Origin: Actinomycetospora straminea
GTDB lineage: Bacteria > Actinomycetota > Actinomycetes > Mycobacteriales > Pseudonocardiaceae
Direction of reading: 5' to 3'
DNA: 64,000 nt
Assembly (NCBI RefSeq): GCF_028737255.1
Contig: NZ_JAQZAN010000027.1
Coordinates: forward strand, 1-64,000
The translations under genes and the position numbers were made by a program. Positions 9,178-64,000 of this stretch are shown here, piece by piece; positions within the stretch are counted from its first letter, which is position 1, and every line of letters starts with the position of its first letter. The notes under the pieces were generated by a model, which worked only from the letters and a program-made list of their open reading frames with translations, did no database searches and had not been told where the DNA came from.

Positions 9178-9273
9178 GGAGGCGTCAGGGTTCCTGGTGG
9201 GCCCCGCGGTCTTCAACACCGTAGTGGCCGAGCATCTCGGCCAGGCGGGTTCGATTCCCGTCCGCCTCCGCCA
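9178..9273 (+). tRNA. selC: tRNA-Sec (selenocysteine, anticodon TCA)
   Basis: This is a long tRNA of 93 bases plus an encoded CCA (9271-9273). The anticodon loop CTTCAAC (9211-9217) carries TCA, which reads UGA. The acceptor arm GGAGGCG pairs with CGCCTCC, the variable arm is long (GGCCGAGCATCTCGGCC), and the T arm holds TTCGATT. These are hallmarks of tRNA-Sec. A TAGGCT -10 box at 9165-9170 ends 7 bases before the gene. It lies directly upstream of a formate dehydrogenase with an in-frame UGA. Confidence 0.96.
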
Positions 9274-9322: not shown

Positions 9323-12300
9323 GTGGGTGCGCGCACCTGGCTCGGCGAGTGGCCGATCTTCCGGCAGGCCACCGGGCCCGACCCGCTCGGACGCGGCGCC
9401 GCCGTGCAGAGCCCCCGCACACAGGCCCTGGGGCCACGGACCGCGGACGCCGACGAGGTCGTCAAGTCCGTCTGCCCGTACTGCGCCGTCGGTTGCGGGC
9501 AGAACATCTACGTGCGCGACGGGCGCGTCACCCAGATCGAGGGCGACCCCGACTCGCCGGTCTCCCGCGGGCGCCTGTGCCCCAAGGGCTCCGCGTCGAC
9601 GTCGCTCGTGACCTCCCCGACGCGCGTGACGACCGTGCGCTACCGGCGCCCGTACGCCACCGAGTGGGAGGACCTCGACCTCGACACGGCGGTCGACATG
9701 ATCGCCGACCGCGTCATCGACGCCCGCCGGCGCGGGTGGCAGGACACCGACGACGACGGCCGCGTCCTGCGGCGCACCCTGGGCTTCTCCAGCCTGGGCG
9801 GCGCGACGCTGGACAACGAGGAGAACTACCTCATCAAGAAGCTGTTCATGGCGCTCGGCGCGATCCAGGTGGAGAACCAGGCGCGCATTTGACACAGCGC
9901 CACCGTCCCCGGTCTGGGGACCAGCTTCGGTCGTGGCGGCGCCTCGAACTTCCAGCAGGACCTGCAGCACAGCGACTGCATCGTCATCGAGGGCTCGAAC
10001 ATGGCGGAGGCCCACCCGGTGGGCTTCCAGTGGGTCATGGAGGCGAAGCGCCGCGGCGCCACGGTCATCCACGTCGACCCGCGGTTCACGCGCACCAGCG
10101 CGGTGGCCGACCTGCACGTGCCGTTCCGGGCGGGCGCGGACATCGCCTTCCTCGGCGGGCTCATCCACTACGTGCTGGACAACGAGCTCGACTTCCGCGA
10201 GTACGTCACGACCTTCACGAACGCGGCCGAGATCGTCGGCGAGGACTTCGCCGACGCGGACGCCACGGGCATCTTCTCGGGCTACGACCCCGAGACCGGG
10301 CGCTACGACCCGATCTCCTGGCAGATGGAGGGCGGGGGTTACGAGGCGCCGGCGGCCGGGATGCGCGACCACTGGGAGCCCGAGTTGCGCGAGCACCACG
10401 CCGCGCACGCCTCGGACACCGCCGGTGGCGCGGGCGAGCAGGCCCACGCCCCCGCCGACCCGCCGCGCGACGACACCCTCCAGCACCCGCGCTGCGTCTA
10501 CCAGGTGCTCAAGCGGCACTACGCGCGCTACACGCCCGAGGCGGTCGCGTCGGTGTGCGGGATGTCGACCGAGCAGTTCCTGGAGGTCGCCCGCGCGATC
10601 ACGAGGAACTCCGGCCGTGACCGCACCACGGCGTGGGTGTACTCGGTGGGCTGGACCCACCACACCGTCGGCGCGCAGTACATCCGCGCGGCGGCGATCC
10701 TGCAGACGCTGCTGGGCAACATGGGCCGTCCCGGCGGCGGCATCCTCGCGCTGCGGGGGCACGCGTCCATCCAGGGCTCGACGGACATCCCGACGCTCTA
10801 CGACCTGCTGCCGGGCTACATCCCCATGCCCAACGCGCACCTGCACGAGGACCTGCGGAGCTTCCTCGACGCGGACGCCGCGAAGACCGGGTTCTGGGGT
10901 CACATGGACGCCTACCTGGTCAGCCTGCTCAAGGCGTGGTGGGGCGACGCGGCGACGCCGGAGAACGACTTCGCGTTCGGGTACCTGCCGCGCCTGACCG
11001 GCAACCACGGCACGTACGGGATCGTCCGCGACCAGATCGACAAGAAGACCTTCGGTTACTTCCTCGTCGGCGAGAACCCGGCGATCGGGCACGCCAACGG
11101 CAAGATGCAGCGCCTGGGGCTCGCGAACCTCGAGTGGCTCGTCGTCCGCGACATGCAGATGATCGAGTCGGCGTCGTTCTGGAAGGACGGCCCGGAGATC
11201 GAGACCGGGGAGCTGCGCACCGAGGACATCGGCACCGAGGTCTTCTTCCTGCCGTGCGCCAACCACACCGAGAAGTCGGGCACGTTCACCAACACCCAGC
11301 GGCTGCTGCAGTGGCGCCGCGAGGCGGTGCACCCGCCGGGTGACGCCCGCTCGGAGCTGCACTTCTACTTCCACCTCGGCAAGCGGATCCGGGAGAAGCT
11401 CGCCGGCTCGACCGACGAGCGCGACCGCCCGCTGCTCGACCTGACCTGGGACTACCCGACGTTCGGCGTGCACGCCGAGCCGGACCCGGAGTCGGTGCTC
11501 GCCGAGATCAACGGCTTCGACGCCGACGGCGACCACCTGTCGAGCTACACGCAGATGAAGGCCGACGGGTCGACGTCGGCCGGCTGCTGGATCTACACCG
11601 GGGTGTTCAAGGACGGCGTCAACCAGGCCGACCGGCGCACGCCCGGCTCCGAGCAGGACTGGGTCGCGGCGGAGTGGGGCTGGGCGTGGCCCGCCAACCG
11701 GCGCACGCTCTACAACCGCGCGTCCGCCGACGCCGACGGCAGGCCGTGGAGCGAGCGCAAGGCCTACGTGTGGTGGGACGCCGAGCAGGGCTCGTGGACC
11801 GGCCACGACGTCCCCGACTTCGAGGCGACGAAGCCGCCGTCGTACCGGCCGCCGGAGGGTGCGCACGCCGAGGACGCCCTGTCGGGCACCGACGCGTTCA
11901 TCATGCAGGCCGACGGGAAGGCGTGGCTCTACGCGCCGACCGGGCTCGCGGACGGCCCGATGCCCACGCACTACGAGCCCGTCGAGTCCCCGGTGGCGAA
12001 CCTCCTGCACGACCAGCAGGACAACCCGGCCCGCGAGGACATCGACCGGGCGTGGAACCGGCTGAACCCGGCCATGTCGGAGACGTATCCCTACGTCTTC
12101 CTGACCTACCGGCTCACCGAGCACCACACCGCGGGCGGCATGAGCCGATTCCTGGGCTACCTCTCCGAGCTCCAGCCGGAGTTCTTCTGCGAGGTCTCCC
12201 CCGCCCTGGCCCGCGAACGGGGCCTCGAGCACCTCGGGTGGGCCACGCTGATCTCGGCGCGGACCGCGATCGAGGCCCGCGTCGTCGTGACCGAGCGCAT

Positions 12301-12556
12301 GAAGCCGCTGCGCATCGGGGACCACGTGGTGCACCAGATCGGACTGCCCTACCACTGGGGGTCCAACGGCCTGTCCCAGGGCGACCCGGCGAACGACCTG
12401 CTCGGCGTCGTCATGGACCCCAACGTCCACATCCAGGAGTCGAAGGTGGCGACCTGCGACATCCAGCCCGGGCGTCGACCTCGCGGACCCGCGCTGCTCG
12501 AGTTCGTCGAGTCCTACCGGCGCAAGGCCGGGGTGGAGCCGGGAGGCATCACGTGA
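9323..12556 (+). CDS. fdhA: Formate dehydrogenase catalytic (alpha) subunit, selenocysteine-containing
   Basis: This molybdopterin enzyme oxidises formate to CO2. It is 1077 residues if UGA at 9890-9892 is read as selenocysteine (Sec190). Both parts lie in the same frame, and the context NQARI-Sec-HSATVPGLG matches the active site of selenium-type formate dehydrogenases. The N-terminus binds a 4Fe-4S cluster (Cys51, Cys54, Cys58, Cys86, followed by PKG). The C-terminus carries the MGD-binding region. A SECIS hairpin follows the UGA. I chose GTG 9323, 50 bases after tRNA-Sec, with GGGGG about 8 bases upstream. No twin-arginine signal is apparent, so the location is uncertain. The stop overlaps the next start (GTGA). 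The insertion at about residues 355-380 is rich in His/Ala. Confidence 0.95.
9890..9926 (+). promoter_or_regulatory. SECIS element directing selenocysteine insertion
   Basis: Just after the UGA, GTCCCC (9905-9910) and GGGGAC (9916-9921) form a perfect 6-bp stem closing the loop GGTCT (9911-9915). GGUCU is the SelB-recognised apical loop of the E. coli fdhF SECIS. Here it lies at bases 19-23 after the UGA, the same offset as in fdhF. Confidence 0.93.
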
Positions 12557-13647
12557 CCAACGTCTTCGACCGGGCGGGCGGGAAGGTCTGGGACGCGTTC
12601 TCCGGGACCACGCCGTCGCTGTCCGGGCCGCTGCCGGACCCCTCGACCGACGCGGGCTGGTCGGGCGATCACCCCAAGCGGGTGGGCTTCTTCACCGACA
12701 CCTCGGTGTGCATCGGCTGCAAGGCCTGCGAGGTGGCGTGCAAGGAGTGGAACCTGGTGCCCGACGACGGCACCGACGCCTCCGACCTCTACCGCCTCAC
12801 CGGGATGTCGTACGACAACACCGGTGACCTCGGCGCCTCGTCGTGGCGGCACGTGGCGTTCATCGAGGACGTCCGCCCGCACGGCACGGCGACGCCCGCG
12901 CACGGTGGTCAGCAGACCGGTTTCCTGCCCGCCGGGCTGCCCGCGGTGCACGGCGGGGGCAACGGCCACACGCCGCGCGACGCCGCGACGGCGCCGCCCG
13001 ACGGCGGGACCGTCGATCTCCTCGCACTGCTCCCGGACAGCGGCGCGCACGGCCAGCAGACCCCCGACGACGAGCGCGACGTGCGCTGGCTGATGTCATC
13101 GGACGTCTGCAAGCACTGCACGCACGCCGGGTGCCTGGACGTCTGCCCGACCGGCGCGCTCTTCCGCACCGAGTTCGGCACGGTCGTCGTGCAGGACGAC
13201 ATCTGCAACGGCTGCGGCTACTGCGTGCCGTCGTGCCCCTACGGCGTCATCGACGTGCGCGAGTCCGACGGCGGCGCCCACAAGTGCACGCTCTGCTACG
13301 ACCGGCTCGGCGAGGGCCTCGAGCCGGCGTGCGCGAAGGCGTGCCCGACGAACTCCATCCAGTTCGGCGACCTCGACGAGCTGCAGGCCGCGGCCGACGC
13401 CCGCCTCGCCGAGCTGCACGGACGCGGCGTCCAGGAGGCGCGGCTCTACGGGCGCGACCCCGACGACGGGGTCGGCGGCGACGGGGCGTTCTTCCTGCTG
13501 CTCGACGAGCCGGAGGTCTACGGGCTGCCGCCGGACCCGATCGTCACCACCCGGGACCTGCCCGAGATGTGGCGCAACGCGGCGCTCACGGCGGTCGGCC
13601 TCGGTGCGGCCGTCGTCGCGGCGTTCTGGAAGGGAGGTCGGCGGTGA
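12553..13647 (+). CDS. fdhB: Formate dehydrogenase iron-sulphur (beta) subunit
   Basis: This 364-residue electron-transfer subunit has four cysteine clusters for 4Fe-4S centres: CIGCKACEVAC near residue 56, CKHCTHAGCLDVCP, CNGCGYCVPSCP and CTLCYDR with CAKACP. A His/Gly/Pro-rich insertion sits between clusters one and two. The C-terminal segment LTAVGLGAAVVAAFW is a single membrane anchor, as in FdnH/FdoH. Its GTG overlaps the fdhA stop (GTGA) and is preceded by GGGAGG, so it is translationally coupled. It should pass electrons from the catalytic subunit to the NrfD-like subunit. Confidence 0.95.
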   Translation: MTNVFDRAGGKVWDAFSGTTPSLSGPLPDPSTDAGWSGDHPKRVGFFTDTSVCIGCKACEVACKEWNLVPDDGTDASDLYRLTGMSYDNTGDLGASSWRHVAFIEDVRPHGTATPAHGGQQTGFLPAGLPAVHGGGNGHTPRDAATAPPDGGTVDLLALLPDSGAHGQQTPDDERDVRWLMSSDVCKHCTHAGCLDVCPTGALFRTEFGTVVVQDDICNGCGYCVPSCPYGVIDVRESDGGAHKCTLCYDRLGEGLEPACAKACPTNSIQFGDLDELQAAADARLAELHGRGVQEARLYGRDPDDGVGGDGAFFLLLDEPEVYGLPPDPIVTTRDLPEMWRNAALTAVGLGAAVVAAFWKGGRR

Positions 13648-14732
13648 CCGACACCAACCCGGCCGAGATCCCGACCCGGTTCGGGCACGACGAGGGCCGC
13701 GAGGCCGACCGCGGCAGCGAGCGGCGCGGGCGGGGACGCAAGGGCGAGCAGCTGCAGGTCCCCGAGGCCGAGTTCCGCTCGTACTACGGCCGCCCGATCA
13801 TCAAGGCGCCGGTGTGGAAGAACCCGGACGTCCCGCTGTACCTGTTCCTCGGTGGGCTCGCCGCGACGTCGGCCGGGCTCGGCGCGCTCGGCGGGGCGAC
13901 GGACCGCCCGACGCTGCGGCGCACGGGACGCCTGGCCGCGGCCGGCGGGGCGGTCGGCGGCACCGTGTTCCTCGTCCACGACCTGCACCGCCCGTCCCGG
14001 TTCCTGCACATGCTGCGGGTCTTCAAGCCGACCTCGCCGCTGTCGGTCGGCACCTGGATCCTCTCGCCGTTCGCGACCTTCGCCGCGGCGACCGCGGCCG
14101 CCGAGGTGGTGGAGCCGTCCCTGCGCCGGCGTGGCGCCCACGGGCTCGCGCGCGTCGTCCGGCGCGCGGGCAACGCCTCCGGGGCCGCGTCCGCGGTCAT
14201 CGGCCCGGCGCTCGGCACCTACACCGCGGTGCTGTTCTCGAACACCGCGGTGCCGACCTGGCACGAGGCGCACCGCCACCTGCCGATCGTGTTCGCCGGC
14301 AGCGCGGCGGCGGCCGGCGGCGGGATGGGGCTGGTCGGGTCGTCGGTCCGCGACAACGTGCCCGCGGCGCGGCTGGCCGTGGCGGGCGCCGCGGTGGAGC
14401 TCGCCGCGGGCGAGGTCATGGAGCGCCAGCTGGGCCTGCTCGGCGACGTGTACCGGAAGGGCCGGGCGCACACGCTGATGCGCGCGTCGAAGGCGTGCCT
14501 CGCCGCCGGGGCCGTCGGGACCCTGCTGGGCCGGCGTCGTCGCTGGTCGGCGGCCCTGTCCGGGCTGGCGCTGATGGCGGGCTCGGCGCTGACGCGGTTC
14601 GGCGTGTTCGACGCGGGCATCGCCTCGGCGAACGATCCGGCCCACATCGTCGTCCCGCAGCGAGAGCGCCTCGAGCAGCGGCGCTCGACGATGGACCAGG
14701 ACGTGGCCCCGCCGGACCGCACCTTCGCCTGA
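13644..14732 (+). CDS. NrfD-like membrane subunit of formate dehydrogenase
   Basis: This 362-residue protein has a charged N-terminal 65 residues followed by about eight hydrophobic helices, typical of NrfD/PsrC quinone-interacting membrane subunits. Here NrfD probably replaces the cytochrome b subunit of FDH-N and carries electrons to or from the quinone pool. GTG overlaps the fdhB stop (GTGA) with AAGGGAGG upstream. With the two preceding genes it forms a three-gene coupled operon. Confidence 0.88.
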   Translation: MTDTNPAEIPTRFGHDEGREADRGSERRGRGRKGEQLQVPEAEFRSYYGRPIIKAPVWKNPDVPLYLFLGGLAATSAGLGALGGATDRPTLRRTGRLAAAGGAVGGTVFLVHDLHRPSRFLHMLRVFKPTSPLSVGTWILSPFATFAAATAAAEVVEPSLRRRGAHGLARVVRRAGNASGAASAVIGPALGTYTAVLFSNTAVPTWHEAHRHLPIVFAGSAAAAGGGMGLVGSSVRDNVPAARLAVAGAAVELAAGEVMERQLGLLGDVYRKGRAHTLMRASKACLAAGAVGTLLGRRRRWSAALSGLALMAGSALTRFGVFDAGIASANDPAHIVVPQRERLEQRRSTMDQDVAPPDRTFA

Positions 14733-14770
14733 CGTCGGTACTGCCCCGCGCGGGTGGCGGCCGGCGCTCA

Positions 14771-14788
14771 CGCCGCCGTCGGGCGGCG
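14771..14788 (+). terminator. GC-rich hairpin between the fdh genes and the permease
   Basis: CGCCGCC and GGCGGCG form a 7-bp stem with a GTCG loop. No T-tract follows, so termination is only possible, not shown. It lies 38 bases after the NrfD-like stop. Confidence 0.25.
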
Positions 14789-14811
14789 GCGTCGCCGTCG
14801 TGTGACGATCG

Positions 14812-15915
14812 GTGGCCGTGACGGACGCGCGGGTCGAGGTGCGGCGCCGGACGGGGCCGCCGCCGTGGGCGGTGCTGGCGGGGTTCGCGGTACTGGTCGT
14901 CGGGGGCCTGCTGTGGGCGAAGTGGGCGCCGTACTGGGTGAAGGTCCCGTCGGTGGCGGGCTCGCACTCGCTCGGACCGTCCATCCTCACCGGCGGGGAG
15001 CCCGCCCCGCCCGGGGTGTCGCTGGGTGCCGGCGTGGAGTTCGCCGGCACGTACTTCCTGGCGATCTGGCCCGCGCTCGTCGTCGGGCTCGTGCTGGCGG
15101 CGGCGGTGCGGGTCGCCCTGCCCTCCGCGTGGATCGCCCGGGTGTTCGGCGCGGGCGTGCGCGGCGGTGTGCGCGGGAGCGCGCTGGCCCTGCCGTCGCT
15201 GATGTGCTCGTGCTGCGCCGCGCCGGTCGCGGTCGGGCTGCGGCGGCGTGCCGCGGACCTGACCGCGACGCTCGCGTACTGGCTCGCGAACCCCGCGCTC
15301 AACCCTGTCGTCCTCGCTTTCTGCGCCTTCGTCCTGCCGTGGCCGTGGACCGTGCTGCGCGCGGCCGCCGGGGTCGCGGTCGTCGTCGCGGCGGTCGCGC
15401 TCGGCCGGTGGTGGGCGCGGCGCGCCCCCGGCGACGCCGTGGTGGACGCCGCCGACGTCGTCGGTGTCGCCGAGGAGCCCTCGGCGGACGGCCGCCCGCT
15501 GGTCGTGCGCTTCCTGCGGGCGCTCGGCGGGCTCGCCGTCCGATTGCTGCCCGAGTACCTGCTGCTCGTCGTCGCCCTGGGCGCGTTCCGCGGCGTGCTG
15601 TTCCCGGTCGGCGCGTCGTGGCTGACGGGCACGGGGGTCGTGCTCGCCGTCGTCGCGGTCGTCCTGCTGGCCGTCGCCGGGACGCTGCTGCCGATCCCGA
15701 CCGGCGCCGAGGTCGCGGTGGTGGTGGCGCTGCTCGCGGTGGGGGTGTCCGGGCCACTGGCCGCGGCGCTGCTCGTCACCCTGCCCGCGGTGAGCCTGCC
15801 GTCGCTGCTCATGGTGCGCAGCGCCTTCCCGCGCCGGCTGCTCGTCGCCGTCACCGGATCGGTCGTCGCCGTCGGCCTGCTGACCTCGGCGGGGGCGTGG
15901 GCCGTCGGCCTGTGA
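14812..15915 (+). CDS. Permease of the ArsP/YraQ (PF03773-like) type with CSCC motif
   Basis: This 367-residue protein has about ten predicted membrane helices and resembles the ArsP_1 permease family. The first conserved block contains SLMCSCCAAPVAVGLRRR, a Cys-rich variant of the family's CSCG-P motif, followed by LANPALNPVVL. The repeat-like second half has GTLLPIPTGAEVAVVV. Family members export organoarsenicals or move other soft metal(loid)s. Position between formate dehydrogenase and selA-selB suggests a selenium-related substrate, which is inference. The GTG start at 14812 is one of two close options (also 14818). selA follows after 7 bases. Confidence 0.75.
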   Translation: MAVTDARVEVRRRTGPPPWAVLAGFAVLVVGGLLWAKWAPYWVKVPSVAGSHSLGPSILTGGEPAPPGVSLGAGVEFAGTYFLAIWPALVVGLVLAAAVRVALPSAWIARVFGAGVRGGVRGSALALPSLMCSCCAAPVAVGLRRRAADLTATLAYWLANPALNPVVLAFCAFVLPWPWTVLRAAAGVAVVVAAVALGRWWARRAPGDAVVDAADVVGVAEEPSADGRPLVVRFLRALGGLAVRLLPEYLLLVVALGAFRGVLFPVGASWLTGTGVVLAVVAVVLLAVAGTLLPIPTGAEVAVVVALLAVGVSGPLAAALLVTLPAVSLPSLLMVRSAFPRRLLVAVTGSVVAVGLLTSAGAWAVGL

Positions 15916-15922
15916 GCGCACA

Positions 15923-17221
15923 ATGGGCGCCGTGAGCGACGATCACCGCCGCCGGGTGCCGCGGACCGACACGGTGCTCGCCGACGCGCGGCTGGAGCCG
16001 GCGCTGGCGACGCTGGGGCGCGCGCGTGTCAAGGAGGTCGTCGTCGCCGCGCAGGGCCGGGCGCGGGCCGGGGAGATCGCGCCGGAGGCCGTGGCCGACG
16101 AGGTCGTCGCCTCCCTCCCCCGCACGGCCGCGAGCATGCGCCCCGTCCTCAACGCCACCGGGGTGCTGCTGCACACGAACCTGGGGCGCGCGCCGCTGTC
16201 CGCGGCCGCCCGGGACGCGCTGGACGCGGCCGCCGGCACGACCGACGTCGAGCTCGACCTGGCCACGGGCGGGCGGGGGCGTCGCGGCGCGGGGGCGCTC
16301 GCCGCGCTCGCGGCCGCGGTGCCCGACGCGGGCGGGGTGCACGTCGTCAACAACGGGGCCGCGGCGCTGATCCTGGCGGCGACGGCGCTGGCCGGCGGCG
16401 GGCGGGAGATCGTCATCGCGCGCGGCGAGATGGTCGAGATCGGCGACGGGTTCCGGCTGCCCGACCTGCTCGAGTCGACCGGCGCGCGGCTGCGCGAGGT
16501 CGGCACGACCAACCGGGTGCGGGTGGACGACTACGCGGACGCGATCGGCCCGCAGACCGGCATGGTCCTCAAGGTCCACCCCTCGAACTTCGTCGTCACG
16601 GGCTTCACGTCGTCGGTGCCGGCGTCGGCGCTGACCGGGCTGGGCGTGCCCGTCGTCGCCGACATCGGGTCCGGGCTCCTCGCGCCGCACCCGCTGCTGC
16701 CCGACGAGCCCGACGCGGCCACCGAGCTGCGCGGCGGGGTGCCGCTGGTGACGGCGTCCGGGGACAAGCTGCTCGGCGGGCCGCAGGCCGGGCTGCTGCT
16801 CGGCGACGCCGACCTCGTCCACCGGCTGCGCCGCCACTCCCTCGCGCGGGCGCTGCGCGTCGACAAGCTGACCCTGGCGGCGCTCGAGGCGACGCTGCGC
16901 GGGCCGGAGCCGCCGGTGCGCGCGATGCTCGCCGCGGACCTGGCCTCGCTGCGCGCGCGGGCCGCCGAGGTGGCCGCGGCGATCGGGGAGCCGGCGGCGG
17001 CGGTCGACTGCGCCGCGCAGGTCGGCGGCGGCGGCGCGCCGGGGGTCGAGCTGCCGAGCGCCGGGGTGGCCCTGCCGTCGTCGCTGGCGTCGGCGTTGCG
17101 TCTCGGGTCCGACCCCGTGGTGGCGCGCGTCGAGCAGGGCCGGTGCGTGCTGGACCTGCGGTCGGTGCCGCCGTCGGAGGACCCGCGGCTGGTGGTGGCG
17201 GTGCGGGCGGCCCTGCCGTGA
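15923..17221 (+). CDS. selA: L-seryl-tRNA(Sec) selenium transferase
   Basis: This PLP enzyme converts seryl-tRNA(Sec) to selenocysteinyl-tRNA(Sec) using selenophosphate. It has 432 residues, with the SelA signature NATGVLLHTNLGRAPL at 77-92, VGTTNR at 193-198 and the PLP lysine in SGDKLLGGPQ (Lys282). ATG 15923 is 7 bases after the permease stop. A GTG at 15932 is equally plausible, since CACAAT ends 7 bases before it. The stop overlaps the selB start (GTGA). selD is not in this window and must be elsewhere. Confidence 0.96.
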   Translation: MGAVSDDHRRRVPRTDTVLADARLEPALATLGRARVKEVVVAAQGRARAGEIAPEAVADEVVASLPRTAASMRPVLNATGVLLHTNLGRAPLSAAARDALDAAAGTTDVELDLATGGRGRRGAGALAALAAAVPDAGGVHVVNNGAAALILAATALAGGGREIVIARGEMVEIGDGFRLPDLLESTGARLREVGTTNRVRVDDYADAIGPQTGMVLKVHPSNFVVTGFTSSVPASALTGLGVPVVADIGSGLLAPHPLLPDEPDAATELRGGVPLVTASGDKLLGGPQAGLLLGDADLVHRLRRHSLARALRVDKLTLAALEATLRGPEPPVRAMLAADLASLRARAAEVAAAIGEPAAAVDCAAQVGGGGAPGVELPSAGVALPSSLASALRLGSDPVVARVEQGRCVLDLRSVPPSEDPRLVVAVRAALP

Positions 17222-57941: not shown

Positions 57942-58014
57942 GCGCCGTTAGCTCAATGGGCAGAGCAAGTGACTCTTAATCACTGGGTTCGGGGTTCGAG
58001 TCCCTGACGGCGCA
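57942..58014 (+). tRNA. tRNA-Lys (anticodon CTT); likely island attachment site
   Basis: The acceptor GCGCCGT pairs with ACGGCGC, the anticodon loop ACTCTTAAT contains CTT, and the T arm has TTCGAGT. A tyrosine integrase starts 92 bases downstream in the same direction, so the tRNA 3' end is the probable integration site. I did not find a second copy of the tRNA 3' end within the window. Confidence 0.95.
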
Positions 58015-58105
58015 CCCATCGTTGCAGGTGTCGGGCCTGCAGTGCTTCCCTCCAGGAGATCGACGGTCCGCTTACGGGCCGGAAACTCCTCGGGAGGCGC
58101 TCCAC

Positions 58106-59332
58106 ATGGCCCGTCCGCCCCTTCCGCTCGGCACCCCCGGGACAATCTCCGTCGCCGAGGAAGAGCCCGGCTCCTGGGTTGCTCGCTGCCGCTTCCGCGA
58201 CCACGACGGCGTCACCCGCCGCCTTCGCAAGCACGGGCCCTCGAAGACCGCCGCGAAGGCGGCCCTGCACGAGCTCATCCAGCAGCGACAGCGAGGCAAG
58301 ACGGGACAGGGCGCCGTGCTGACGCCGGCGTCGCGCTTCCGCGAGGCGGCCGTGCTGTATCTCGCGAAGGTGGACCGCAAGCGCGAGGACTCGACGCACG
58401 CGCTGTACGCGTACCACCTTGATCGCACGGTCCTTCCGGCCCTGGGTGCGCTCCAGCTCCGTGAGTGCACCGTCGCGCGCCTGGACGCTTTCCTCGAGGC
58501 CCTCGAACCTCGCTACGCGCCCTCCACCCGCCGCACGCTGCGATCGATCGTCAGCGGCGTCCTCCAGATCGGGGTGCTCCACGAGGCCCTTCCGGCCAAC
58601 CCGGTCCGCGAGCTCGACCGCATCGAGCAGCCGAAGGGTCAGGCCAAGAAGAAGCCGCGTGGGCTGACGGTCGACGAGCGCCAGGCGCTTCTCGACTGGT
58701 TCGACCACACTTCAGAGGACGTCCGAGTCCGGCGCCTCCAGCGGGTCGCGCGGGCCGCGGAACTGCCGGAGCTCGTGCGCTTCTCCCTCGGCACAGGTCT
58801 GCGCATTGGCGAAGCGCTCGCGGTCCGTCGGCTCGACGTGAACCTCGACGGGGTGCCGGTTCGCGGCCAGGAGGGTCCGTTGCGCGTTCCGGTGGTCACC
58901 ATCGCTGGCAACGTGACGTGGGTGAAGGGCAAGGGCCTCGTGCGCCACGACGGCAAGAGCGAGGCCGCCCTCCGTGTCATTCCGCTCCCCCGGTTCGCCG
59001 CCGACCTCCTCCGCGAACGTCTGGGCCAGCCCGGCGAGGACGGGTGGCCGCTGTTCCCGGCGGCTGGCCGAGACGGCCGCATCACTTACCGCTGGCCGTC
59101 GAACGTGCGGCGGACCCTGCGATCGGTACGCGACGAGGTGGGTCTGGACTGGATGACTCCGCATACCTGGCGACGCACCTACGCCACCATCCTCGACGAT
59201 GAGATCACCTTTACCGATCGCATGAAGGCCGACCTCATGGGCCAGGCCGACTTCTTGAAGAACACCTACGTCAGCCGTGGCGAGCTCCACGCCGGCGCCG
59301 CCGTCCTCCTCGATGCAGCCCTTGCTGCGTAA
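58106..59332 (+). CDS. int: Tyrosine-type site-specific integrase
   Basis: This 408-residue phage-type integrase has an arm-binding N-terminus (WVARCRFRDHDGVTRRLRKH), a core-binding SAM-like domain (about 95-200) and a catalytic domain with GTGLRIGEAL (first Arg), HTWRRTYATI (His-xx-Arg) and the nucleophile Tyr in NTYVSRGELH. GGGAGG lies before ATG 58106. It lies directly after tRNA-Lys and marks the left end of an integrated island. No excisionase is recognised. Base use is less GC-rich at third positions than in the preceding core genes. Confidence 0.93.
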   Translation: MARPPLPLGTPGTISVAEEEPGSWVARCRFRDHDGVTRRLRKHGPSKTAAKAALHELIQQRQRGKTGQGAVLTPASRFREAAVLYLAKVDRKREDSTHALYAYHLDRTVLPALGALQLRECTVARLDAFLEALEPRYAPSTRRTLRSIVSGVLQIGVLHEALPANPVRELDRIEQPKGQAKKKPRGLTVDERQALLDWFDHTSEDVRVRRLQRVARAAELPELVRFSLGTGLRIGEALAVRRLDVNLDGVPVRGQEGPLRVPVVTIAGNVTWVKGKGLVRHDGKSEAALRVIPLPRFAADLLRERLGQPGEDGWPLFPAAGRDGRITYRWPSNVRRTLRSVRDEVGLDWMTPHTWRRTYATILDDEITFTDRMKADLMGQADFLKNTYVSRGELHAGAAVLLDAALAA

Positions 59333-60014: not shown

Positions 60015-60539
60015 TCAGCTCGCGAGCCCGAGATTGATGAGCCGGAAGTTCATGGCCGCAGCACTGACTCGGAAGATGCTCGCCAGGACCTTTGCCGCGT
60101 CCTCGGGATCGCGCCGACGGGCGGGTGTCAGCTCGCTGACGTGCTGGCGGACGAGCCGTTCGGGCATGAGCAGTGCGGCGGCGAAGGCGTTGGCCTGGAT
60201 CTCCTCGCGGTCGGTGGCCATGGCCGACACCGAATCGCGCCGGTTGATCCGCATCGGCCGGTCGAAGATCACCAGACGGCCCGGGTGCAACGCCCAGTGT
60301 CCGAGTTCGTGGGCGATGGTGAAGCGCTGCCGGACGGCAGCTTGAACGGTGTTCACCCCGATCACCGCAGGCATGCCCTCCTCGCGCAGCAGCATCCCGG
60401 AGACGTCGCCGTCCTCGAAGCGCTGCGGGACGACCTCGACGCCGCACGCCTCGGCGAGCCGCTCCAGGTCGACCGGAGCGGCGAGCAGACCGTGCTCGAG
60501 CAGGAGCTGTTCGGCAACGGTCTCAGCGCGCGGAGCCAT
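60015..60539 (-). CDS. ImmA/IrrE-family metallopeptidase
   Basis: This 174-residue zinc protease-like protein has HELGHWALHPG with the HExxH motif, and ANAFAAALLMPERLV downstream, typical of ImmA/IrrE proteins that cleave partner repressors in mobile elements. Its ATG lies inside the end of the XRE gene (overlap 17 bases), so they are expressed together. It may relieve repression of island genes after DNA damage or infection. Confidence 0.9.
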   Translation of the reverse strand: MAPRAETVAEQLLLEHGLLAAPVDLERLAEACGVEVVPQRFEDGDVSGMLLREEGMPAVIGVNTVQAAVRQRFTIAHELGHWALHPGRLVIFDRPMRINRRDSVSAMATDREEIQANAFAAALLMPERLVRQHVSELTPARRRDPEDAAKVLASIFRVSAAAMNFRLINLGLAS

Positions 60540-60897
60540 GACCCACCCCGTGGATGGCGGTGGTCGCCGCGCCGCGAGCCTGCCGAATCGCGTTGACCGC
60601 GTCCCGGTCGGCGCCGGTGAGACCACCCAGCGCGTCGGGAGCCGGTGCGGCCGGGAGCAGGTCCTCGGTCGTGGTCGACAGAAGCCCGGCGAGCACGGGC
60701 AGCTGGTGCATCAGTAGGCGCTGGCGTCCCTTCTCGATGTTCGAGATCGACGTGCGGTTCAGACCCACCGCCGCCCCAAGCGCTTCCTGGCTCATCCCGG
60801 CCTGCACCCGCTTGTCGTGCAGGCGCTCGCCGAACTCCCGGTAGAACCGGTCGACGTCGTCGTGATCGGTGCGCACGACGCGCAGTGTGTCAGCCAC
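60523..60897 (-). CDS. XRE-family helix-turn-helix repressor
   Basis: This 124-residue DNA-binding protein has LHDKRVQAGMSQEALGAAVG then LNRTSISNIEKGRQRLLMHQ, a clear Cro/CI-type helix-turn-helix. The C-terminal part is Ala/Asp-rich. It is followed by the ImmA-like protease and diverges from the CD-NTase gene; repeated CACCAAC sites fill the gap. GTG 60897 is my choice; GTG at 60876 is another. It probably represses itself and perhaps the defence operon. Confidence 0.88.
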   Translation of the reverse strand: MADTLRVVRTDHDDVDRFYREFGERLHDKRVQAGMSQEALGAAVGLNRTSISNIEKGRQRLLMHQLPVLAGLLSTTTEDLLPAAPAPDALGGLTGADRDAVNAIRQARGAATTAIHGVGHGSAR

Positions 60898-60977
60898 ACC
60901 AACCCGTTGCCATGTCGTGAAGATCGCGTGTTGACGTTGGTGAAGCGTGCACGGGTGTTGCGCTTGACACCAACGTC
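60897..60977. promoter_or_regulatory. Probable operator region between XRE repressor and CBASS-like operon
   Basis: GACGTTGGTG (60933-60942) and CACCAACGTC (60968-60977) form a perfect 10-bp inverted repeat with a 25-base gap. A third CACCAAC half-site lies at 60897-60903 at the XRE start. TTGACG and TTGACA hexamers overlap the sites, but no good -10 is evident. Confidence 0.5.
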
Positions 60978-61053
60978 CGGCAGCTGGTCTCCTGGGTCCC
61001 GGTCGCGCTCCCCCTCGACCCGTCACCGACCCCCATCCGGAAGGCCCCCCGAG

Positions 61054-62034
61054 ATGCCCTCCTTCCTCGACGAGCTCCTCGACGCCGGCCGCGGCCGCAT
61101 CGAGGTCCCCGACCCCGTCCTCGCCGAAGCCCGCCGGCGCCGCGAGCAGATCGTCGCCGCGCTGCGCAACGCCTTCCCCGGCGCCGCGGTGTACTTCAAC
61201 GGATCCGTCGCCCACGGCGACGCCACCGACCCGCTGGCCGACATCGACGTCGGGGTGATCCTCAGCCCGGTCGCTGCCGACGGGTACGGCCCGTACGGGC
61301 TCGGCCCGCTGCCACTCATGGAGGACGCCCGCGACGCCATCCGCGAACACCTCAAGGACGACTACCCCAAGCTGGTGGTCACCGTCGCCGGGCAGCGCCG
61401 CGCGGTCCTGGTGCGCTTCGGGGACCCGGTCACCCCCGGCCAGCCCGACTTCACCTGCGACGTCATCGTCGCCCTGCCCCACCCCGAGCAGGGCCTGTGG
61501 ATCCCGAACACCGAGATCGCCGCGGGCTGGGACCAGGCCGACCCGGTCGAGCACACCCGGCTGATCCACCAAGCCATCGCCGACACCAACGTGGTGTTCG
61601 CCCGCGTCGTGCGGCTGCTCAAGCACTGGCGCGACCGCCACGGCGACCCGCTGTGCTCGTGGAACATCAAGGCCCTCGCGCTGGACTGCATCACCGTGCC
61701 GATGCCGCCCACGGTCGCGCTGCAGACCTTCTTCGACCACGCCGCCCGCGACCTCGCCGCCCGCTACACCCCCGACCCCGCCGGCGTCGCCGGCCCGGTC
61801 CAGCCCACCTTCGACCGCGAGCACGCCGTGACCCGGTTGCGCCGGGCCCGCGAGATCATCACCGAGGCCCTCGAGCACCAGCGGGCGGCGCGGCTCGCGT
61901 CGGCGCAGCAGAAGCTGCACACCCTGCTGCCCGGCGTCGTCGACCCGCCCGCCCTCGACGAGCTCTACCGCGAGCGCTCCCGCTCGCTCACCGCGGCCAC
62001 CGTCGCCTCCCCCACGCGGGCCTGGGCGCCGTGA
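61054..62034 (+). CDS. CD-NTase-like nucleotidyltransferase (CBASS-type cyclase)
   Basis: This 326-residue protein has the polymerase-beta/CD-NTase core: NGSVAHG (Gly50-Ser51), the metal-binding DID at 63-65 and a third acid at Asp136 (PDFTCDVIVAL). GLWIPNTE, DPVEHTRLIHQ and VVRLLKHWRDRHG then SWNIKALALD follow the helical OAS-like part. Such enzymes make cyclic oligonucleotides when phage infects. The next gene encodes an E2-like protein and overlaps by GTGA, as in type II-short CBASS. The C-terminus ends in TRAWAP, the region E2 proteins would attach or process. GGAAGG lies upstream of ATG 61054. Nucleotide product unknown. Confidence 0.82.
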   Translation: MPSFLDELLDAGRGRIEVPDPVLAEARRRREQIVAALRNAFPGAAVYFNGSVAHGDATDPLADIDVGVILSPVAADGYGPYGLGPLPLMEDARDAIREHLKDDYPKLVVTVAGQRRAVLVRFGDPVTPGQPDFTCDVIVALPHPEQGLWIPNTEIAAGWDQADPVEHTRLIHQAIADTNVVFARVVRLLKHWRDRHGDPLCSWNIKALALDCITVPMPPTVALQTFFDHAARDLAARYTPDPAGVAGPVQPTFDREHAVTRLRRAREIITEALEHQRAARLASAQQKLHTLLPGVVDPPALDELYRERSRSLTAATVASPTRAWAP

Positions 62035-62576
62035 CCGGGTGGTACGGCACCCGCCCGTCGTGGCGGGTGCCGTTCGAGGCGGCCGCGCGCCGCCGCTTCG
62101 GCACCGACCTGCACGCCCTCGACCGTCCCGACCTCACCGCCGGGCTCGGCTCCCGACTCGCCTCCGGGTCGGGATCGCGATCGGCAGGACGCCGGGGCGC
62201 CCACGGCGGCGGGGAGAGCCTCGAGTACCGCGTGGCCGCCGTAGAGGTCGACGGGCAACCGGCCTTGGTCGACATCGCGATCCGGTTCTGGGCCGAGCCG
62301 CGCTACGACACCTACGGGCTCGCCCCCGCGGACTTCCCCCGGGTCCACGCCGAACCGGGGGTGGCCTCCCCGCATCGGCACATCGACGACGCCCTGTGCC
62401 TGTGGAGCCCGTTCGACCCGCCCGAGCTGCGCTGGCGCCACGAGCTCGGCCTGCTCGACCTCATCGAGATCACCCGCCGCCACCTGTTCCTCGAGCGGTA
62501 CTGGCGGATGACCGGCGGCACCCGCGGCGGGGTCTGGCTGCTGCCCGACGCCCCCCACGGCATCCCCGCCGCATGA
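62031..62576 (+). CDS. E2-like (ubiquitin-conjugating fold) protein of a CBASS-like operon
   Basis: This 181-residue protein has the bacterial E2 active-site pattern: HRHIDDALCLWSPFD with Cys123 as the only cysteine in the protein, after a strand VDIAIRFWAE and followed by helix DLIEITRRHLFLERYW. In type II-short CBASS such a protein acts on the C-terminus of the CD-NTase. No E1 or JAB gene is present. GTG overlaps the CD-NTase stop, and its own stop overlaps the next ATG, so the three genes are tightly coupled. A low-complexity Ser/Gly/Arg loop lies at 38-62. Confidence 0.78.
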   Translation: MTGWYGTRPSWRVPFEAAARRRFGTDLHALDRPDLTAGLGSRLASGSGSRSAGRRGAHGGGESLEYRVAAVEVDGQPALVDIAIRFWAEPRYDTYGLAPADFPRVHAEPGVASPHRHIDDALCLWSPFDPPELRWRHELGLLDLIEITRRHLFLERYWRMTGGTRGGVWLLPDAPHGIPAA

Positions 62577-63127
62577 GCCCGCTGCTCGCCGTCCTCGTCC
62601 TCGCCCCGCCCGCGCCGTCGGCCATCGCGCCGGCCGGCGGCGGGTGGGGCTGGGCCCAGACGGTCGCGCTCATCGTCCCGGTCCTCGCCGCGCTCGGCGC
62701 CGTCGCGCTGTGGACGCTCGGGCAGCGCGCCGCCCGTTGGGAACGGCGCAGCAACGCCTTCGCCGCCGCGCTCGCCGCGGTCGAGTCCTTCGCCGAGATG
62801 CCCTACCGCATCCGTCGGCGCCCCGCCGGGGGCGACGCCCGCCAGCAGCTCACCGACCAGATCAGCGCCATCCAGGCCGACATCGCCTTCCACCAAGCCT
62901 GGCTCGAGCTCGAAGCCCCGACCGTCGCCGAGCCCTACCAGACCCTGGTCCGCGCCGCCCGCGGGCAGGCCGGGGCACAGATGCACCAGGCCTGGACCCA
63001 CCAGCCGCTGGACCGCGACGAGGATATGAACTTGCACATCGCATATCCCCGCGAGCAGATCGACGCTGCCCGCGCCGACTGCCTCGCCGCCATGCGCGAC
63101 GCCCTGCGCCTGTTCCGGGCCCGCTGA
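62573..63127 (+). CDS. One-helix membrane protein, candidate CBASS effector
   Basis: No family is recognised. The 184-residue protein has a short hydrophobic N-terminus, a clear membrane helix at about 27-49 (WAQTVALIVPVLAALGAVAL), then a cytosolic helical part with many Arg, Gln and Trp residues (residues 55-184). It is the last gene of the CD-NTase/E2 operon (ATGA overlap). CBASS operons normally carry an effector and no other candidate exists here, so membrane disruption is a fair inference. It shows no SAVED, TIR, nuclease or phospholipase motif. Confidence 0.65.
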   Translation: MSPLLAVLVLAPPAPSAIAPAGGGWGWAQTVALIVPVLAALGAVALWTLGQRAARWERRSNAFAAALAAVESFAEMPYRIRRRPAGGDARQQLTDQISAIQADIAFHQAWLELEAPTVAEPYQTLVRAARGQAGAQMHQAWTHQPLDRDEDMNLHIAYPREQIDAARADCLAAMRDALRLFRAR

Positions 63128-63637: not shown

Positions 63638-64000
63638 GCGGTCTCTCCAGCATGACGAACGTTCGCACCCGCCGGGCGCGGTCGTATTGGATGGGTCGTG
63701 ACGCCGGAGGTGACGCCTGCTCCGAGGAGGGACGCGGGCTCCCGCCCGGACACCGGTTGCGATCGCGACGCCCGCGCCTGCCGCGCGGCTCCGGTGACTG
63801 CCCGCTCGCGGTAATCGCTTCGCCGGTCGTGACCGCACCCTGACAGCGACGCCCAGCCAGCGTCCGATCGAGGCGGAGCGCTGCTCCATGCCTGCTCCAA
63901 CGACGGACGCATCTCGTCTCCGGCGATGCCCAAGACCTCTGAACAGACCAAGGGTCGCGACTTCATGCAGGGCCATCCAGCCTGTCGGTGGGCTGTGGTC
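63638..64000. other. Right end of window, no gene assigned
   Basis: Several open frames cross this stretch on the reverse strand, but none has recognisable motifs or a persuasive start. It may contain the 5' part of the frameshifted hypothetical gene to its left. No attachment-site repeat of the tRNA-Lys 3' end is visible. Confidence 0.35.

Follow-up and report, generated by a model that had tools for sequence, protein, structure and literature searches.

The odd point of type II-short CBASS is an E2 that works without an E1. In the Serratia system of Yan et al. 2024, the E2 reportedly processes the C-terminus of the cyclase, makes a conjugate through a Cys and assembles chains of cyclase. 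For full type II CBASS, two papers describe a cyclase whose last residue is typically Gly or Ala and carries the conjugation (PMC10097602, PMC11153139), and one of them adds that the C-terminus is not conserved where an operon has no Cap2 and Cap3 or has no E2 domain (PMC10097602). Cyclase-cyclase conjugation has been proposed for an E2-only system in published work. For the CapH/CapP pair, two papers describe CapP as activated by ssDNA and as cutting CapH (PMC13373217, PMC10904395), and the first describes the pair as answering DNA damage (PMC13373217).

The window, a stretch of 64,000 nucleotides of Actinomycetospora straminea DNA, contains an operon of three intact ORFs on the forward strand (61054-63127) encoding a CBASS oligonucleotide cyclase (CD-NTase; 61054..62034, 326 aa), an E2-like protein (62031..62576, GTG start, 181 aa) and a one-TM effector (62573..63127, 184 aa). 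An earlier sequence-only reading of this DNA had described three genes with 4-base overlaps, and both the ORFs and the overlaps were recovered, GTGA (62031-62034) joining the cyclase and E2 genes and ATGA (62573-62576) joining the E2 and effector genes. PADLOC models matched the three products as PDLC00779 (3.1e-121), PDLC00869 (1.2e-55) and PDLC00666 (2.2e-56), respectively. Chance ORFs can be ruled out because of these HMM scores and because the three-gene order, cyclase-E2-1TM, is repeated in relatives.

The same reading had taken the gene order and coupling for type II-short CBASS, an assignment supported by family models that fit all three proteins, by the solved chains closest to the cyclase, which are nucleotidyltransferase and CdnD entries, and by the lack of any E1 (ThiF) or JAB match on the operon contig (C19); elsewhere in the genome, ThiF matches lay only on C7, C54 and C33 and a JAB match only on C7. 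The locus has the sequence features that define a type II-short system: a cyclase with G-S and three catalytic Asp residues, an adjacent lone E2 with its Cys, and an effector gene, with no E1 or JAB. Neither the E1 domain (Cap2) nor the Cap3 JAB of full type II CBASS was found on the contig, and the window cyclase ends in Pro instead of Gly or Ala. Judged by its sequence, the locus is a real and well-formed type II-short CBASS whose genes are intact and whose effector is of the 1TM kind.

The first protein, encoded by a single-copy gene in this genome, is named Cyclase by PADLOC (PDLC00779) and carries the motifs attributed to it beforehand, NGSVAHG at residues 49-55, DID at 63-65 and the third Asp at 136. 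In 29 dereplicated relatives (from 36, L039 included), the fraction of the commonest residue was 1.00 at D63 and 0.97 at G50, S51, D65 and D136. NCBIfam returned CBASS_cyclase_b at 94.1 bits, below its 200-bit cut-off, and Pfam gave sub-cut-off matches only, the best being DZF_C (0.0013) and NTP_transf_2 (0.0017). The nearest solved chains in the PDB were 6p82/6p8u (5.8e-11), the former of which we take to be Pseudomonas CdnD, and 9ntn, named CdnD (5.3e-8). The sequence-only reading had named a non-cyclising nucleotidyltransferase as the finding that would speak against it; by its PADLOC score, this protein belongs with the CBASS cyclases. A housekeeping nucleotidyltransferase was considered and rejected, no tRNA or antibiotic family being among the matches listed.

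The second protein contains a single Cys, Cys123 (codon 62397-62399, + strand), in the LCLW context proposed for its active site. This residue was present in 51 of 51 aligned E2 rows, duplicates included, together with R116 (51) and H115 (50), and an inactive, UEV-like E2 was rejected on the strength of the invariant Cys. An AF2 model (pLDDT 80.4, pTM 0.77) shows a helix, four strands, the Cys loop and a long helix, and the five best Foldseek matches were human E2 G1, GCN2 RWD domains and yeast Ubc12. The E2 fold had been singled out beforehand as a point on which the interpretation could fail. The order of structural elements and the identity of the top Foldseek hits are in keeping with it, but those hits are weak (E 0.44-0.97) and none of 15 E2-like members scanned matched the Pfam E2 families. 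A sequence search of the PDB returned no credible match, and a profile comparison with another E2 subfamily aligned the two Cys loops at a probability of 32%. The E2 family call rests on PADLOC, and an E2 (UBC) fold is likely.

The C-terminal tail of the cyclase, TRAWAP in the window, contains a motif, R-A-W-A-P (residues 322-326; 62017..62031, + strand), that is conserved across dereplicated E2-partnered cyclases. The pattern [RK][ASG][WYF] occurred within the last 25 residues of 33 of 34 such cyclases compared with 5.4% of shuffled tails, a contrast that overstates the significance of the motif because the sequences are related by descent and kinship inflates any count. Better evidence comes from comparing the motif with the variable stretch that precedes it, and from the controls. 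The mean commonest-residue fraction was 0.48 at positions 285-319, a region variable in both length and sequence, versus 0.70 at 320-325, with R322 reaching 0.93 and W324 0.86 in the 29-cyclase set. The single exception to the pattern, L086, has SAYG with no basic residue. The residue after the aromatic was A or G in 30 of the 33 motif tails, and T, S and R took that place in L004, L035 and L053, which leaves more than one candidate position for the cut. At least one residue always followed the A/G position, exactly one in 23 of the 33 and two to eight in the remaining 10.

The tail count started from 48 loci with both cyclase and E2 HMM hits. Seven were dropped because they were broken or duplicated either the window or a locus already kept (L001, L002, L003, L013, L029, L085, L087), and with the window added 42 were used, leaving 34 after dereplication at 90%. 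L088 and L091 had an E2 hit and no cyclase at the threshold used, and L048 and L056 represent one locus with a broken cyclase. The cyclase of L025 lies in two frames, and its tail was read from the second piece with the pieces unjoined. Four E2-less relatives served as controls (L030, L049, L052, L084), and these had neither the tail motif nor a convincing E2 match; L030 is cut at the contig start, about 1.4-2.5 kb downstream was covered for the other three, and the effector of L052 is of a 4TM type. L050, a cyclase fragment without E2 or tail, was excluded from the controls. Two further loci, L039 and L048, kept the tail without an E2 HMM hit, and each showed a short match to the start of the E2 directly after the cyclase (2e-4 and 4e-10), followed in L048 by the effector gene. 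These matches are probably E2 remnants, and the pattern reads as E2 loss.

Ten other relatives (L005-L012, L051, L054) share a different ending, D[AG]PQG, with DAPQG in nine and DGPQG in L012. The ORF next to the L005 cyclase belongs to a different E2 subfamily (PDLC00860, 4e-80), and homologous ORFs were found in all ten loci. D[AG]PQG is thereby predicted to be a second E2-only tail type, paired with a different E2 subfamily. Within the main set, the Cys loop of the E2 also varied with the tail: LCMW accompanied Y/F tails in 7 of 7 cases and LCL[WYF] accompanied W tails in 25 of 26 (L086 differs), with one LCIW beside a Y tail. This pairing may reflect shared descent rather than co-adaptation.

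The proposal that the E2 acts on the cyclase C-terminus without an E1 finds backing in this tail conservation, which fits an E2 that would both trim the tail and conjugate the cyclase. The residues after the A/G position are variable, which implies either trimming of the tail or a chemistry other than that of full type II CBASS. An alternative is that the same CBASS uses its E2 without tail cutting, either taking an E1-like enzyme of MoeB/ThiF type encoded elsewhere in the host and conjugating via the true last residue, Pro326, or only binding the tail. ThiF-family proteins are indeed encoded on the three other contigs named above, and in full type II CBASS an E1 domain serves to conjugate the true C-terminus (PMC11153139, PMC10097602). 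However, only 7 of 34 cyclases end in G or A; the final residue varies otherwise (P, E, D, I, V, R and others) and stands 1-8 residues beyond the conserved core, and no E1 match lies on the operon contig. We regard this alternative as unlikely and favor trimming by the E2. A review table gives Y405 for the Serratia E2 reaction (PMC12135389). If Y405 were the trimmed end, and this is a guess, it would match the conserved aromatic here.

A bolder form of the trimming reading can be put forward tentatively, and we consider it somewhat doubtful in its entirety. In this form, the lone E2 would be a self-contained protein ligase, free of E1 and ATP and sortase-like in its logic, whose Cys attacks the peptide bond behind R-[AS]-[WYF], or behind the A/G that comes next, sets free 1-8 residues, stores the bond energy in a thioester and joins the cyclase to an amine. 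Recognition would depend on the tail motif, which would differ according to the E2 (R[ASG]W or KSW with LCL[WYF], R[AS][YF] with LCMW, and D[AG]PQG with PDLC00860), and the 1TM effector would read the nucleotide signal by a helical-bundle sensor unlike solved CBASS sensors. Independently of this bolder form, the internal motif, absent in E2-less relatives and differing with the E2 subfamily, points to the residues worth mutating and narrows down where a cut would fall. The tail rule covers systems from many Actinomycetota and from one Variovorax plasmid.

The third gene had been read as encoding a membrane protein, in agreement with the single TM found at about residues 31-49 (mean hydropathy 2.41) and with its membership of the PADLOC 1TM Effector family. 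The 15 residues before this segment contain no K or R and the 15 after it contain four, and among 14 aligned members there were 0-1 before and 4-6 after. Because the K/R residues lie after the TM and not before it, a cytoplasmic location of the C-terminal part is suggested. Within this part lies PYRIRRR (residues 77-83), found as E[MA]PYRIRRR in 14 of 14 aligned members and as variants in farther relatives, where nucleotide binding might hypothetically take place. An AF2 model (pLDDT 83.8) shows a helical bundle for which a fold search gave no credible match (best E 0.31, a receptor domain); Pfam returned nothing, and a PDB sequence search yielded no credible solved relative.

Divergent from the operon, on the minus strand, lies the pair that the sequence-only reading had called XRE/ImmA. 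Its first gene encodes a CapH-like XRE repressor (60523..60876, probable GTG start; PADLOC capH 7.3e-11) and its second a CapP-like metallopeptidase with HELGH (60015..60539; PADLOC capP 3.1e-34, Pfam Peptidase_M78 7.1e-20). The pair thereby shows the arrangement of CapH/CapP, an XRE protein and an M78 metallopeptidase divergent from CBASS, and capH and capP were the best PADLOC families of the two proteins. CapP appears to be a short form because only positions 4-154 of the 242 in the profile were matched; its relatives carry HE[LF]GH and terminate within one residue of the same position. Counting duplicates, the pair was also seen next to the cyclase at 13 loci other than the window copy (L002, L003, L013-L017, L019, L023, L025, L034, L039, L042), and a diverged capP-like protein was found near three other relatives tested (L018, 1.6e-7; L031, 5.1e-11; L080, 4.8e-15).

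The intergenic region between the divergent genes (60877..61053) would likely hold the operator and promoters. It contains a 10-nt perfect inverted repeat (60933-60942 / 60968-60977, 25-nt spacer) that may act as an operator. The repeat did not recur in this form at L014 or L025, and a conserved 10-nt repeat was rejected on this ground; a search for a sigma-70-type promoter gave no match. The region between capH and the cyclase in a Streptomyces locus, L015 (7880-7914), contains a 16-nt inverted repeat, 94% complementary with a 3-nt spacer, with similar sequence across six aligned loci, and this repeat is likely a CapH operator.

The proposed island at tRNA-Lys was also recovered, with a tyrosine integrase (58106..59332, + strand; Pfam Phage_int_M 1.1e-7, Phage_integrase 3.4e-6) adjoining tRNA-Lys (CTT) at 57942..58016 (+ strand; ARAGORN, Rfam), the insertion site. 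ARAGORN also called a selenocysteine tRNA (tca) at 9178-9273 (+) of the window. A 21-mer from the 3' end of the tRNA-Lys (57993-58015) has three exact copies on contig C1 (L063 at 1577, 10742 and 12539), on which no tRNA was found, and a further copy with two mismatches on C33; no second copy was found on C19, which presumably runs on into C1. In three congeners (G042, G166, G178), tRNA-end copies lie on the contig and strand of the tRNA itself, at 36, 62 and 69 kb in the single-contig G042, while G135 has one on the other strand and other congeners have copies on other contigs. Such repeated copies mark a used insertion site or hotspot. Downstream on the contig are a TrwC relaxase fused to an AAA domain (8.2e-46, L057:3519-7976, minus strand) and a type IV coupling protein (1.2e-22, L057:11837-13753, minus strand), so the element is of a conjugative or mobilisable type. 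Right after the operon, a 971-aa ORF (window 63988-64000 into L057:89-3004, + strand) matches DUF4365 (1.4e-14) and, weakly, a short-Argonaute-associated nuclease (2.8e-8), and is a possible second defence gene.

Copies of the integrase occupy the same site in G166 (94% identical) and G042 (75%), and neither genome had CBASS or capHP in the stretches read or a cyclase match genome-wide; in G042, the equivalent slot (L079, about 9967-16962) holds other ORFs, none of the eight tested matching PADLOC. The integrase thus occupies this site in two congeners without either the pair or CBASS beside it, and the switch is therefore assigned to the operon. The earlier coupling of the operon to island control is not supported, and CapH/CapP, the CBASS switch, is the best reading of the pair; as a regulator of the element it was rejected, since congeners carry the integrase at this site without it. 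Operon and switch together are predicted to be cargo of an integrative element at tRNA-Lys. The operon might instead mainly serve that element, in its stability or in a response to DNA damage and transfer, and not phage defence. Carriage as cargo of a transfer-type element would suit this idea, as would the answer of CapH/CapP to DNA damage described in PMC13373217. Against it, cyclase, E2 and effector all fall into CBASS families, an established antiphage kind (PMC11153139, PMC10097602), and congeners keep the same integrase without the operon. We consider service to the element highly improbable and retain defence as the preferred role.

The closest named relative of the cyclase is that of Actinomycetospora soli (80% identity), and the congener G151 carries an 80% copy. 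Relatives were found in 12 of 200 genomes of the family sample at E 1e-10 (own included; 8 of the 12 with the other E2 subfamily), in 5 of 396 of the phylum sample at 1e-25 (own included) and, at 1e-12, in 17 of 295 genomes from the genus of G222, which is probably Streptomyces. The E2 model PDLC00869 matched 7 of 394 class genomes, own included, and none of 14 control genomes. The cyclase also has matches on ten plasmid records, including some from Sinomonas, Arthrobacter and Variovorax. No cyclase relative was confirmed in viral contigs and no E2 match was found in phages, and carriage by phages was rejected.

Our best explanation, which we consider probable, is that an intact type II-short CBASS, with its 1TM effector and its own CapH/CapP switch, is carried as cargo of the element at tRNA-Lys. 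The genes, their families and order, the conserved catalytic residues, the tail rule and the co-travel of the switch with the operon are observed; we infer each reaction step, and defence itself. CapH would repress the operon until ssDNA from DNA damage activates CapP, which would then cut CapH. Upon infection, the cyclase would make a cyclic oligonucleotide, which may, given the kinship to CdnD, be a cyclic trinucleotide rich in purines. The E2, with no E1, would trim the cyclase tail at R-A-W-A-P via Cys123 and hold the cyclase as a thioester, then pass it to an amine, such as that of another cyclase as reported for Serratia, and cyclase activity would rise. The 1TM effector would bind the signal in its helical cytoplasmic part, with PYRIRRR as a possible site, and would then assemble and harm the membrane, leading to death of the infected cell.

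As a defence system the locus is ordinary; what appears to be new here is the tail rule, added by this analysis, together with an effector that has no solved relative. In addition, CBASS and a DNA-damage switch sit together here as cargo, with congeners of the element lacking both. The effector itself resembles the PADLOC 1TM CBASS effectors (PDLC00665/00666), which have one TM and about 170-190 aa and follow cyclase and E2, with no difference seen. The switch resembles the published CapH/CapP (Lau et al. 2022) in having a divergent XRE repressor and an M78 metallopeptidase with HELGH, and differs from it in that CapP is short here. Like full type II CBASS (Cap2 E1-E2, Cap3 JAB), the locus combines a cyclase bearing a conserved C-terminal signal with an E2 bearing an active Cys, but it has neither E1 nor Cap3 on the contig, and its A/G lies inside the tail and not at the end. 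With the type II-short system of Serratia marcescens (Yan et al. 2024), it shares a cyclase, a lone E2 and an effector, the lack of E1 and JAB, and an E2 proposed to act on the cyclase C-terminus. In contrast, the cyclase here is nearest to nucleotidyltransferase/CdnD chains whereas the Serratia enzyme is named CdnG, and this locus has a 1TM effector and a tail motif of its own, R[AS][WYF][AG] followed by 1-8 residues.
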